Shown here: positions 50,277 through 54,223 of the stretch, piece after piece
Numbering within the stretch: position 1 is the stretch's first letter
Layout of the letters: each line of letters opens with the position of its first letter
Source of the DNA: Arthrobacter sp. NicSoilB8
GTDB lineage: Bacteria; Actinomycetota; Actinomycetes; Actinomycetales; Micrococcaceae
NCBI RefSeq assembly: GCF_019977355.1
Contig: NZ_AP024655.1
Location: 868,001 to 932,000 of the forward strand
Reading direction: 5' to 3'
Length of the DNA stretch: 64,000 bases
Made by a program: the position numbers and the translations under genes
Notes under the pieces: model-generated
Told to the model about the DNA's origin: nothing
The model's database searches: none
What the model saw: only the letters and a program-made list of their open reading frames with translations

Positions 50277-50396
50277 GTGATTGCCGAGACAGGTAACGAC
50301 GTTGGCTGGGAAGCGATTCTTAATCACGGCGATCGCCGGCTGAGCGTAGGCCTCCGGGATTTCACGGACCGTCGTCGTCGAATTGCGGTCCGGTGA
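50277..50396 (+). CDS. Short coupled open frame before the STAS-like gene
   Basis: This 39-residue frame begins at a GTG with a strong ribosome site (GAAGGAGAG, six bases before). It reads IAETGNDVGWEAILNHGDRR and ends in RRRRIAVR. Its TGA overlaps the GTG start of the next gene (GTGA), the usual sign of translational coupling, and the next gene has no ribosome site of its own. It may be a true small protein, or the start of the following protein after a frameshift. Confidence 0.45.
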   Translation: MIAETGNDVGWEAILNHGDRRLSVGLRDFTDRRRRIAVR

Positions 50397-50902
50397 CGGT
50401 CGAGGCCCTGGTCGGGCCCGACGAGCGGCTTCCGGACGAGGCAAACGGTGCCCCCACGTCCAATGCTGCCGTCACGACAATAGGGACGGCTGCGACGAAC
50501 GACGTGCTGTTCGCCGACCCGGGTGCGGACCGCGATGCGGACCGCGCCATCGGGGTGCGGATGATCGACGGCGGAATCATCGAAGTCCTGATTCCCCCCA
50601 ATCAGGAGATCGAAGGGCCGGAGGCACGCGTTGCCGGTGACGCGGTCCGTGCCCTCGCCGCGGGACGGCGGATGCCGGTGCTCCTGGTGATCACCGGCGT
50701 CGTGGGTGTCAGCGTTGAGGCGCGGCAGGTCTACACGGGATCCATAGCGGCGACCGCGTTCGCCCTGGTGGGCGAGAGCCCGGTGGACCGGGTCATCGCG
50801 CATTATCTCCTGCGGTCCAGAAGCGAGACGATCCCGGCCCAGTTCTTCAGCTCTGAATCCGCGGCCGTCGAGTGGCTAAGGCAGTTCGCCCGTGAAGAGT
50901 GA
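50393..50902 (+). CDS. STAS/SpoIIAA-like (DUF7793-type) domain protein
   Basis: This 169-residue protein has about 55 variable N-terminal residues, then a compact alpha/beta domain: IGVRMIDGGIIEVLIPPNQE, ARVAGDAVRALAAGRRMPVL, VYTGSIAATAFALVGESPVD and SSESAAVEWLRQFA at the end. The order of strands and helices and the AALVG-type helix resemble SpoIIAA/STAS-like proteins (DUF7793). The assignment is by pattern, not search. The stop overlaps the GGDEF-EAL start by 11 bases, so it probably serves as its partner or sensor. Confidence 0.6.
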   Translation: MTVEALVGPDERLPDEANGAPTSNAAVTTIGTAATNDVLFADPGADRDADRAIGVRMIDGGIIEVLIPPNQEIEGPEARVAGDAVRALAAGRRMPVLLVITGVVGVSVEARQVYTGSIAATAFALVGESPVDRVIAHYLLRSRSETIPAQFFSSESAAVEWLRQFAREE

Positions 50903-52424
50903 CGCGCCGGACCCCCGTCTGCACGCCCTGGTGGAGGGCATAGTGCGGATCGCGGGAGGCGACCTGAGCACCAGGATCCCGCATTCCGGGGCCCGCGACG
51001 ACGTTGCCGCCGTCATCGCCGGCATCAACCTGATGGCTGATGACCTGCAGACCATCTACCAGGAGCTCGAGGAACGGGTCGAAAGCCGCACGGCCATGTT
51101 GCGCGAGGCGCAGGTGGAACTCGAACGCATGGCGCTGACTGACCCCCTGACCCAACTCGCCAACCGGACAGCGCTCAACTCGGTCCTGAGCCATGCCCTG
51201 GCCGAATCCGCGCGAGGCGAGTTGCCGCCGGCACTCCTGGTTCTCGATCTCGATTCGTTCAAGGGCATCAATGACACCCTCGGACACAGCGCCGGCGACG
51301 ACGTCCTGCGGGTGATTGCACGCCGGCTCCAGGCCGCCGTCCGTGAGACAGACACCGTGGCGCGGCTGGGCGGGGACGAATTCGCCGTCATGCTGCCGAA
51401 GTCCAATCTTGTCCGGGCCCGCCGGGTGGCGAACCGGATCCTCACCGCGCTCAATGAGAGCCTCGACGTCGGTGACCTGAGAATCACGTGCGGAACCAGC
51501 ATCGGCCTGCGGGTCGCTGAACCCGGCCAGGCGGTCGACGACCTCGTCATGGAGGCCGACACGGCCATGTACGCCGCCAAGGCCCAGCCGCACGGCAGCA
51601 TCAAGGTGTTCGAGCCCGCCCTGCTGTACGCGCGCCGGCTCCAGAGCGTCATGGTCACGGAAATGCGCGAGGCGATCCGGCAGGACCAGCTGACCCTGCA
51701 TTACCAGCCGGTGGTGGACCTTGCCACGGGAAGGATCGAGGGCGTGGAGGCGCTGGTCCGATGGAACCACCCGGGGCGCGGCCTGCTCATGCCGGACCAG
51801 TTCATTCCCCTGGCCGAGGAAACCGGCATGATCGTCGACTTGGGCCACTGGGTGCTGCGCAATTCCGTGCGCCAATTGCGGCAGTGGCAGCAGGAACTGC
51901 AGGTCGACAGCGACTTCAACGTCCGCGTCAACATCTCAACCACCGAACTGCAAAACCTCGAGCTGATCGAACATGTGCGGGACATCCTCAGGGAAACCGG
52001 GGTGGATGCGTCAAACCTGATCGTGGAACTGACGGAATCCATGGCCGTCAACGGCGGCGATGTGGACCAGTATTCGCTCAACGGCCTCCGGCGACTCGGC
52101 GTGCAGCTTGAGATCGATGACTTCGGGACCGGCTATTCGTCCATCAGCTACCTGCGCAAGCTGCCAGTGAACGTGGTGAAGATCGACCGGAGCCTGATCA
52201 GCGGCCTGGGCGACGACGAGCAACAGCGGGACTTCGTGGCCGCGGTACTGCACCTCATCCATGCCTGCGGTCTCAAGGCGCTGGCCGAGGGCATTGAGAC
52301 GGCGCAACAGGCCGAGATGCTCCGGGAGATGGGCTGCGGCAGCGGCCAGGGCTACTTTTTCGGCCGGCCCGCTCCGGCCGCTGACATTGTCGAGTTGATG
52401 AACCGCAGTACGCCGGGTTCCTAG
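50892..52424 (+). CDS. GGDEF-EAL cyclic di-GMP enzyme with HAMP-like N-terminus
   Basis: This 510-residue cytosolic protein has a HAMP-like segment (residues about 8-60, IVRIAGGDLSTRI) and a short coiled coil (LEERVESRTAMLREAQVELE). The GGDEF domain follows, with intact LGGDEF (160-164) and an inhibitory RETD site five residues before it. The EAL domain has GVEALVRWNHPGRGLL, NISTTELQNLELI, VELTESMAVNG and IDDFGTGYSSISYL. Both active sites look intact, so it could make or break c-di-GMP. It has no membrane segment despite the HAMP-like start. The GTG start overlaps the upstream STAS-like gene. Confidence 0.93.
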   Translation: MKSDAPDPRLHALVEGIVRIAGGDLSTRIPHSGARDDVAAVIAGINLMADDLQTIYQELEERVESRTAMLREAQVELERMALTDPLTQLANRTALNSVLSHALAESARGELPPALLVLDLDSFKGINDTLGHSAGDDVLRVIARRLQAAVRETDTVARLGGDEFAVMLPKSNLVRARRVANRILTALNESLDVGDLRITCGTSIGLRVAEPGQAVDDLVMEADTAMYAAKAQPHGSIKVFEPALLYARRLQSVMVTEMREAIRQDQLTLHYQPVVDLATGRIEGVEALVRWNHPGRGLLMPDQFIPLAEETGMIVDLGHWVLRNSVRQLRQWQQELQVDSDFNVRVNISTTELQNLELIEHVRDILRETGVDASNLIVELTESMAVNGGDVDQYSLNGLRRLGVQLEIDDFGTGYSSISYLRKLPVNVVKIDRSLISGLGDDEQQRDFVAAVLHLIHACGLKALAEGIETAQQAEMLREMGCGSGQGYFFGRPAPAADIVELMNRSTPGS

Positions 52425-52528: not shown

Positions 52529-52678
52529 CTACTTCTTAGTGGAGTCCGGCCACCAGCCGTAGGCCGCGATGGAGCCTTGACCCGAGTTGTCGCCGGCCGC
52601 CGAGATGGCAGATGCAGCAGACAGGCCAGCCGCGGCCAGCGCACCGGCGACGAGGAGTGTTGCGAGGGTTTTCTTCAT
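52529..52678 (-). CDS. 49-residue secreted peptide precursor
   Basis: The frame starts ATG with AGGAG five bases upstream. It encodes MKKTLATLLVAGALAAAGLS, a textbook Sec signal (two Lys, then a hydrophobic run), with a likely cut after SAASA at residue 24. The mature part would be 25 residues, ISAAGDNSGQGSIAAYGWWP followed by DSTKK, without cysteines. The gene is divergent from the TPR-like gene (210 bp shared region) and ends at a perfect terminator. I know no family for it. The geometry (small exported peptide opposite a helical repeat protein) recalls peptide-signal systems, which is inference. Confidence 0.75.
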   Translation of the reverse strand: MKKTLATLLVAGALAAAGLSAASAISAAGDNSGQGSIAAYGWWPDSTKK

Positions 52679-52888
52679 GAAGACTCCTGATACGTAAGAG
52701 GCTGATGTGGCTCGTGTGATGCAAGATCAGTATATGGGTATGCGACACGCCGCCGTATAAAGATTCGCACCCCGATGCGCGGATTCGTGTTATTCGCGCG
52801 AAGCTTGGCAAGTCCTGAGCCAATACTGCGCAGGTCTTGCTTGTGCGGTTTGTTCGATTCCGCTCGCGCGGCAACGGATAATTGATAC
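52679..52888. promoter_or_regulatory. Divergent promoter region of peptide and TPR genes
   Basis: On the minus strand TATACT (52734-52729) is a good -10 for the peptide gene, giving a leader of about 44 bases. On the plus strand GATAAT (52877-52882) lies six bases before the TPR ATG, so transcription would begin at or next to the start codon and the message would be leaderless. -35 boxes are weak on both sides. The region is less GC-rich than its surroundings. Confidence 0.5.
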
Positions 52889-53911
52889 ATGCAACAAAGC
52901 TCCGTTTCACCCTCGTACGCCGCCGCAGAGCTGCGGGCGCGCGAACACTGGTCCAGCCACGACTTCCGCGAGGCCGCAATCGCCGCGCAGGCGGCCGCGG
53001 ACATTGCCGGTGACGAAGGTGATTCGTCGTCATGGTGGCATATGACGTTCTTCCGCGCGGAGAGCCTGCTTGCCGCCGGGGACTTTGAAGCCTGCGCGCA
53101 AGTTGCCGGGGCGCTCCTTGACGAACCGGGGGACGGAAACCTTCAGCTTCAGGCGCAGGTGCGGATCCTCAAGGCGAAAGCGCGCCACGGCCTCGGAATG
53201 CTCGATGAGGTTGCCGATGAAGCCCGGGCCGCCGCCGATCTGACGAAAGACGAGGGCGACGTGGAAATAAACGTGAAGGCCCGGCAGGCACTGATCGCCG
53301 CGCTGGCTGACAGCGGAAAGCTTGAGGAGGCATGGGCGGAAAGCCTCATCATGGCCGAAGTCATATCCGGTGAAGTCGATGACCAGTTGGTGGGTAAGGC
53401 CTACTGGGTTATCGGAAACGTCGCATTTCTCTCCAACAATGTGCACGACGGGCTGTATTACCACGACCTCGCGGCCGCGACGTTTTCCCCGGCCCGGAAC
53501 CTCACTGTCTGGGCAAAGTTCAACAACGCTTCTGCGGCCATGCGGCTCGCGGCCGACGTCGCGGATGCGGATGCGTTGCGTTGCATTGAAAGGGCCGAAC
53601 TCGCCACGGACGTCATCGGTGGGTCCGACGAGGATCACATATTGCTGAAGCTGAACCGCGGTCACTGGAACTATCTCGCCGGCGACCCGAGGCAAGCGAT
53701 AGAGATTCTGAGCGGCATCTTTCCGGCACCGGAGAGTACCTCGCCGCAGATTCTGGGCGAAGCGTGCTTGCTGCTGGGCAGGTCACACGCCGCACTCGGA
53801 ATCGGCGCCGAAGCCCGGAAGCACTTGCTGGACGCCGCCGACCACTTTGAAAAGGCAGGAGCCCCGCAGCGCGCGGAGCAGGCCCTTGAGTTCCTAACGG
53901 ACGTGTCCTGA
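52889..53911 (+). CDS. TPR-like helical repeat protein
   Basis: This 340-residue soluble protein is made of helix pairs in the TPR style: ELRAREHWSSHDFREAAIAA, FRAESLLAAGDFEACAQVAG, RILKAKARHGLGMLDEVADE, ALIAALADSGKLEEAWAESL, LKLNRGHWNYLAGDPRQAIE and LLLGRSHAALGIGAEARKHL. Seven to eight repeats fill the chain. No HTH, enzyme or membrane domain is visible. TPR proteins of this size bind peptides or protein partners, as in Rap/PlcR-type regulators, some of which also lack an HTH. Its divergent neighbour is the small secreted peptide. No ribosome site is seen, in line with a leaderless message. Confidence 0.8.
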   Translation: MQQSSVSPSYAAAELRAREHWSSHDFREAAIAAQAAADIAGDEGDSSSWWHMTFFRAESLLAAGDFEACAQVAGALLDEPGDGNLQLQAQVRILKAKARHGLGMLDEVADEARAAADLTKDEGDVEINVKARQALIAALADSGKLEEAWAESLIMAEVISGEVDDQLVGKAYWVIGNVAFLSNNVHDGLYYHDLAAATFSPARNLTVWAKFNNASAAMRLAADVADADALRCIERAELATDVIGGSDEDHILLKLNRGHWNYLAGDPRQAIEILSGIFPAPESTSPQILGEACLLLGRSHAALGIGAEARKHLLDAADHFEKAGAPQRAEQALEFLTDVS

Positions 53912-53986: not shown

Positions 53987-54223
53987 GGACATGTCCCGCC
54001 TCGGATGTTGCGGCACGGCGGACATGCCCCGTGCCGGGTCTGAATAATGGACATAAGCCCACTTGGTCCGATGCTCGTGCCCAGGACTGGACATGTCCCG
54101 CGTTCCCAACCAGGCGCAGGTGAGGAGTCCAGTGACCGGAACTAGGACTGGACATGTCCCGTAGTTTCAAACCGGGCGCAGGTGAGGAGTCCAGTGACCG
54201 GAACTAGGACTGGACATGTCCCG
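53987..54223. repeat. Array of GGACATGTCC palindromes with a 48-bp direct repeat
   Basis: The 10-bp palindrome GGACATGTCC occurs at 53987, 54089, 54150 and 54212, and GGACATGCCC at 54020 inside a hairpin (CGGCACGG/CCGTGCCG, 54011-54036). A 48-base block is perfectly repeated at 54114-54161 and 54176-54223. The spacing of the last three palindromes is 61 and 62 bp. The array runs into the 3' end of the next gene. A related array lies at 55855-56180. Confidence 0.85.

Follow-up and report, generated by a model that had tools for sequence, protein, structure and literature searches.

Intracellular-receptor peptide quorum sensing has so far been described for Bacillota, where NprR-NprX, PlcR-PapR, AimR-AimP and Rap-Phr represent the RRNPPA systems. 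With the exception of Rap, which has an N-terminal helix bundle ahead of its tetratricopeptide repeats (TPRs), the receptors of this group carry an N-terminal helix-turn-helix (HTH) domain. The receptors are cytoplasmic and contain 5-9 tandem TPR motifs, the Bacillales propeptide is encoded directly downstream of the receptor, and repeated pheromones occur within the propeptides of NprR (17/17 atypically large ones), AimR (3/11) and PlcR (3/15) (PMC9765709). Two other articles describe tandemly duplicated propeptides for Rap-Phr (PMC11343458) and actinobacterial signals that are typically small molecules made by enzymes (PMC10075063). A literature search, with preprints and most subscription journals outside its scope, found no actinobacterial RRNPP-like system among the papers listed, and the core strings of the peptides treated below led to one unrelated engineering paper only. 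Here we describe a divergent gene pair of Arthrobacter sp. NicSoilB8 that encodes a small exported peptide and an HTH-less TPR protein. It lies in a stretch of 64,000 nucleotides (contig NZ_AP024655.1, positions 868,001 to 932,000), referred to as the window. Judging from the sequences, the peptide is very probably a signal and the TPR protein its cytoplasmic receptor. The two form a conserved signal-precursor/TPR-receptor module that likely works in an RRNPP-like manner, with peptide binding, import and output as predicted steps.

The exported peptide and its divergent TPR protein

The elements of the pair are located in the window as follows.

52529..52678, (-) strand: propeptide gene, 49 aa; Sec-type signal, then a mature part of 25 aa with a single GWWPD core
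52544..52558, (-) strand: codons for residues 41-45, the conserved core G-W-W-P-D, kept in homologs
52684..52688, (-) strand: AGGAG, ribosome-binding site for the propeptide, before the ATG; kept in aligned intergenic regions
52729..52734, (-) strand: probable -10 element TATACT of a putative propeptide promoter, kept in most alignment rows
52877..52882, (+) strand: probable -10 element GATAAT of the TPR gene, ending 6 nt before the ATG
52889..53911, (+) strand: TPR protein of 340 aa with no HTH, predicted to be a cytoplasmic peptide receptor (open reading frame, Pfam, AlphaFold2 model)

A preliminary description of this DNA had recognised a short gene with a clean Sec signal and a 25-residue mature peptide and, divergent from it across 210 bp (52679-52888), a 340-residue TPR protein with no DNA-binding domain. 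The peptide gene was borne out when its open reading frame (ORF) was re-checked, and the TPR gene by its ORF, Pfam and the structural model. The peptide runs from MKK through a hydrophobic stretch to ASA and continues with ISAAGDNSGQGSIAAYGWWPDSTKK. The signal sequence was assessed by eye and with a simple hydrophobicity score; if cleavage follows ASA, the mature part has 25 residues and ends in YGWWPDSTKK. The locus thus has an adjacent gene for an exported propeptide of 10-100 aa, which is an RRNPPA feature. Among 5.8 billion proteins, 106 homologs of the peptide were found, all hypothetical or unnamed save six rows with an ABC-transporter name. The motif [WYF]WP[DNH] is present in 99 of them and the remaining 7 resemble frameshifts; in the aligned homologs (n = 97), the W is kept in 98% and the P in 99%. 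Pfam and NCBIfam gave no family above cut-off for the peptide, and together with the shared motif this speaks against its being a conserved member of an unrelated family.

No HTH was found in the TPR protein by the Pfam search or in the AlphaFold2 model. Pfam returned two TPR-like matches, both sub-threshold, and neither Pfam nor NCBIfam gave a family above cut-off. The model (pLDDT 91.6, pTM 0.83) has 17 helices, which we read as eight TPR-like pairs and a cap. With no signal sequence and this predicted array, the protein resembles the cytoplasmic RRNPPA receptors with their 5-9 tandem TPR motifs, and its groove helices are conserved. Structure searches in the PDB showed that the models resemble Rap/NprR and PlcR/AimR, with generic TPR folds scoring equal or better. 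Because TPR folds match widely, none of the PDB matches is read as proving kinship, and we do not assign the window protein, which has no HTH and whose peptide binding is a prediction, to RRNPPA.

In domain content the window protein resembles Rap-Phr of Bacillus, where an HTH-less TPR receptor acts on proteins. The suggestion of a Rap-like receptor, made in the preliminary description, does not hold in detail. The helices of the window model begin at residue 8 and can all be read as TPR array and cap, leaving no extra N-terminal bundle. The window receptor also differs from Rap in that it adjoins a GGDEF-EAL protein, its probable output, and in that its HTH was lost separately inside an actinobacterial family (see below).

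The TPR message had also been described as apparently leaderless. The GATAAT hexamer is exact in 21/23 aligned loci, the window included, and one base off in L018 and L056; no conserved Shine-Dalgarno sequence was seen by eye ahead of the TPR start in the 23 loci. Since the hexamer is kept 6 nt before the ATG and no Shine-Dalgarno is conserved, a leaderless mRNA is plausible.

Conservation of the pair and anatomy of the precursors

Relatives of the TPR protein were found in 101/101 sampled genomes of the genus and are of two kinds. The first shares 40-80% identity with the window protein and is full-length in 57 genomes (100% in the window's own); G073 and G092, with weak matches only, were not counted among them. 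The second shares 35-39% identity in long open frames, and an HTH was present in the nine loci fetched. Another 18 named Arthrobacter or Paenarthrobacter loci were added from a separate search. The loci were then scanned under a strict rule: an exported ORF of 25-130 aa, starting 50-360 bp from the receptor in divergent orientation, with a WP-type or CC motif past residue 18. The 169 input loci gave 151 distinct scored receptors after identical ones had been merged and rows with no assignable start removed (L048 and, in the phylum set, L151, L153 and L164, which are not among its 21). L048:3968-5085 (Arthrobacter sp. Hiyo8) has a receptor gene apparently split across several frames and was dropped before counting. 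Outside the family, genome counts are lower bounds, since only some candidates were scored per genome (e.g. 5, up to 7, up to 9).

Among HTH-less receptors of the Micrococcaceae, 49/50 have a divergent exported WP ORF, or 50/51 when L061 is added. The HTH-TPR receptors of the family have a divergent exported motif ORF in 33/42 cases. Further out the counts are 3/10 in other families of the order, 24/27 in the class and 10/21 in the phylum. Applied to 82 non-receptor genes, the scan turned up 4 exported ORFs, of which 1 has the motif; these controls were drawn from related loci of the Micrococcaceae only, are partly non-independent, and cover the Micrococcaceae pairing, not the class and phylum sets. 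Chance pairing was rejected on the comparison of 50/51 HTH-less receptors with 1/82 control genes. The sole HTH-less exception, L030, carries inserted DNA that displaces the peptide gene. A longer locus of the same place, L041:2097-4001 (Arthrobacter sp. MA-N2), has about 1.6 kb between precursor and receptor, as opposed to about 0.17 kb in relatives. A WP precursor diverges from the receptor at all 17 HTH-less-type loci taken from other genera, with the variants WPY or WPL in L177, L178 and L186-L189. A regular absence of the peptide gene beside HTH-less homologs, which would have spoken against the pair, was therefore not what we found.

An exported precursor was not found by the strict scan at L085 and L090-L092 (one genus), L093 and L094 (one genus), L096, L113 and L116; in other families of the order at L100, L101 and L102-L106, the last five of which hold CC ORFs outside the rule; in the class at L122, L142 and L145, where a CC ORF is convergent; and in 11/21 of the phylum set. 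A relaxed search at L096, L113, L116, L100, L101, L122 and L142 gained only a signal-less ORF at L096. Signal-less ORFs lie divergent upstream of the receptor at L094 (32 aa, ending GIGDWPHAA) and L096 (21 aa, ending CVGDWPD). They are possibly leaderless signals or remnants, and such short genes beside a receptor recall the leaderless communication peptides with RopB-type receptors. Those systems belong to Firmicutes, and the window peptide differs in having a signal sequence.

The window precursor is a single-core member of a family in which many relatives have tandem precursors (e.g. AIGWWPNAATQGAAQAIGWWPN..., PGWWPDVKPSAAPGWWPD...). Of the HTH-less precursors, 23 have one core and 26 have two to six; among HTH-bearing precursors (three from outside the family included), 33 have two to eight and two of CC type have none. 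Repeated pheromones within propeptides are a likeness to RRNPPA of Bacillota, and secreted precursors with tandem pheromone units are also known from yeast alpha-factor, which differs in being eukaryotic and in having a surface receptor. In precursors with three or more cores (n = 35), the DNA of the cores differs in 28 and a single core is encoded in 34; L086, for example, has eight GDWPH cores in eight DNA versions, and in L072 an additional GNLPDPM unit does not fit the core pattern. As the pattern itself fixes W and P, what carries information is that the DNA changes are silent and that the remaining core residues stay constant. Because tandem cores vary in DNA and hardly in amino acids, the sequences indicate that selection acts on the short peptide, as expected for a pheromone precursor.

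Membrane activity is known among small, Trp-rich exported peptides, and the peptide might be an antimicrobial or other effector that the TPR protein merely regulates or protects against. We consider this highly improbable: short conserved tandem cores with free linkers are a precursor pattern, the genes around the peptide gene include none recognised as a dedicated exporter or as conferring immunity, the TPR fold has conserved groove helices, and the relatives of the receptor bear a DNA-binding domain. There is just as little to recommend a RiPP-like precursor (of ribosomally made, modified peptides) with W-P and CC as modification sites. Strictly conserved W and P and the C-terminal CC of related systems would suit it, but such precursors do not usually carry a Sec signal, and the conserved neighbours are a GGDEF-EAL protein, a DUF7793 protein and one unnamed protein, with no modification enzyme among them. 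A pheromone precursor remains our preferred reading.

HTH-bearing relatives and the loss of the HTH

The genome of the window encodes a paralog, a 421-aa XRE-HTH-TPR protein (G000:C1:4114872-4116131, locus L065; HTH_31 E 1.8e-11). It shares 38% identity with the window protein across the TPR region and, in contrast to it, has an N-terminal HTH. Its own divergent precursor holds three GNWPDPM units. In this paralog the HTH and TPR build resembles that of NprR-NprX, PlcR-PapR and AimR-AimP, which the system also recalls in its adjacent exported propeptide and its fold match. It differs from them in being actinobacterial, in its WP or CC code, in the HTH-less window receptor and in a propeptide gene that is divergent upstream instead of directly downstream. 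The idea that an actinobacterium has an RRNPP-like pair of exported peptide and TPR receptor is supported by the pairing, the tandem precursors, the HTH paralog with its own peptide and the RRNPPA-like folds. At L049 (G000:C1:4110339-4119048), the HTH paralog has a two-gene ABC transporter on one side and genes that we take to be purC/purD-like on the other, with no GGDEF-EAL gene near. The paralog profile matches 54/120 genomes of the family in 16/32 genera. No match was found by tblastn of the TPR protein against phages or of the HTH paralog against plasmids.

In a quick tree of 94 receptors, which carries a long-branch warning, the HTH state changes once, the 51 HTH-less rows forming one group (SH-aLRT 99). 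Because relatives outside the family carry the HTH, the change is a loss; on this sequence evidence the HTH was lost once, secondarily, in the HTH-less branch. The core label changes 14 times for 13 states on the same tree. This congruence alone is no proof of contact because linked genes are co-inherited. The HTH-TPR cores switch by genus (GNWPDPM, GNWPDPS/F, GNWPDA, GIWPN, GDWPH, GEWPH), and within the genus of the window the codes are WWP[DN] or YWP for HTH-less receptors as opposed to NWPD for HTH-TPR receptors.

A profile of HTH-TPR proteins from other families can be aligned to the paralogs across 396 columns (hhalign 99.9%, E 4e-36). All seven loci of the order set (L102-L108) have a small exported CC ORF, with CC near the end in six and internal in L102; two of the seven are codirectional with the receptor and two satisfy the strict rule. 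In the class set, an exported ORF has CC as its last two residues in 25/27 loci, 20 of the 27 being one family (Jiangellaceae by names of relatives) and not independent. L118 has three VGGSWPT units, and in other classes ORFs of 25-35 aa diverge from the receptor (e.g. ...AANWPHH, ...GFPWPK, ...APWPPCC). More distant actinobacterial HTH-TPR proteins are often paired with exported WP or CC peptides. Two propeptides flank a single receptor at L134-L137, where another CC propeptide (ending GGSDFCC, GGSLYCC or GGSDYCC) follows the receptor directly in convergent orientation.

There is perhaps an even chance that these proteins represent an undescribed superfamily spanning the phylum, in which actinobacterial pheromones with aromatic-Pro (WP) and di-Cys (CC) peptide codes and tandem precursors are matched by HTH-TPR receptors, and of which one Micrococcaceae branch has no HTH and directly switches a cyclic di-GMP (c-di-GMP) enzyme. 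If the receptors bind peptides, actinobacteria own a large set of such systems, with codes that are readable and predictable from sequence, and the systems are easily tested with synthetic peptides.

The GGDEF-EAL neighbour as probable output

Two conserved neighbours precede the pair in the window.

50393..50902, (+) strand: DUF7793 protein, 169 aa; overlaps the GGDEF-EAL start and is also beside GGDEF-EAL in several relatives
50892..52424, (+) strand: HAMP-GGDEF-EAL protein of 510 aa, the probable output; adjoins HTH-less receptors as a conserved neighbour

Among L001-L064, 54/55 HTH-less loci adjoin HAMP-GGDEF-EAL in the fetched flank; the exception is again L030 with its insertion, and the longer L041 has the gene. 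The gene order in the clade of the window is DUF7793 and GGDEF-EAL, both forward, then the peptide in reverse and the TPR gene forward. In a second clade, the reverse peptide gene is followed by the TPR gene and GGDEF-EAL, in some cases with DUF7793 between these two, and in three loci inspected the TPR stop is 2 nt ahead of the GGDEF-EAL ATG. A full-length HTH-less receptor lies within 3 kb of GGDEF-EAL on the same strand in 56/57 genomes (30 upstream, 26 downstream); in the remaining one, G085, the locus is split over contigs. HTH-less-type loci from other genera have GGDEF-EAL in 13/17 cases (not in L180, L182, L188 and L189), and it was found beside HTH-TPR receptors in 0/9 loci and 0/3 further loci. 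The enzyme itself is present in 99/101 genomes. At 12 GGDEF-EAL loci from genomes with no HTH-less receptor, a WP precursor was found in 0/12 and DUF7793 nearby in 1/12; peptide and receptor are absent together there, which indicates that they come and go jointly as an add-on to the enzyme. L172:3596-6481 has two tandem HTH-less receptors with their own divergent precursors (ending DDWPH; 2x VGNWPG), followed by GGDEF-EAL.

Because a receptor with no DNA-binding domain adjoins a cytoplasmic cyclase/phosphodiesterase, control of the enzyme by contact is the simplest explanation. The linkage is observed, and the adjacent HAMP-GGDEF-EAL protein is, with some reserve, the target we favour, so that the signal would tune c-di-GMP. 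The propeptide, with its clear signal, would be exported via Sec and presumably cut by signal peptidase. Extracellular proteolysis may then release a short fragment containing the GWWP[D/N] core, which is present once here and repeatedly in many relatives. The fragment could be returned to the cell by an oligopeptide ABC importer; import-type genes are present (10 SBP_bac_5 matches; 16 oligo_HPY matches, 12 above cut-off). The fold and the conserved groove helices suggest that the peptide is bound in the concave TPR groove. Since this descendant of an XRE-HTH-TPR regulator has lost its HTH, it would act most likely by protein contact, with the neighbouring enzyme as predicted partner. If true, the HTH-less branch is a direct line from secreted peptide to c-di-GMP through a receptor derived by a single HTH loss, and a peptide quorum signal is read straight into second-messenger turnover. 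In the Gram-negative DSF (diffusible signal factor)/RpfR system, a quorum signal is also tied to a GGDEF-EAL protein, GGDEF-EAL being part of the domain make-up of RpfR. In that system the signal is a fatty acid to which the enzyme itself binds, where the window system would have a peptide binding to a separate TPR protein.

Instead of acting on GGDEF-EAL, the HTH-less protein might modulate the HTH paralog, through mixed dimers or by soaking up imported peptide. PlcR and AimR dimerise through their TPRs, both proteins are encoded in the window's genome with the similarity given above, the HTH-less branch arose once, and four HTH-less-type loci lie away from GGDEF-EAL. We regard this as improbable given the separate codes within the genus and the fact that two different gene orders both link the receptor to GGDEF-EAL, one of them with a pair spaced by 2 nt. 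By eye, no operator was common to the intergenic regions of the window locus and the paralog, and for this reason we do not claim that the paralog regulates the window locus.

Directly downstream of the TPR gene, the window has four GGACATGTCC palindromes as direct repeats (53987-54221; expected 0.11 per window). The 12-mer GGACATGTCCCG occurs in 36 genome copies, often clustered, versus 1 for its backward control; by this count the palindromes are a dispersed repeat.
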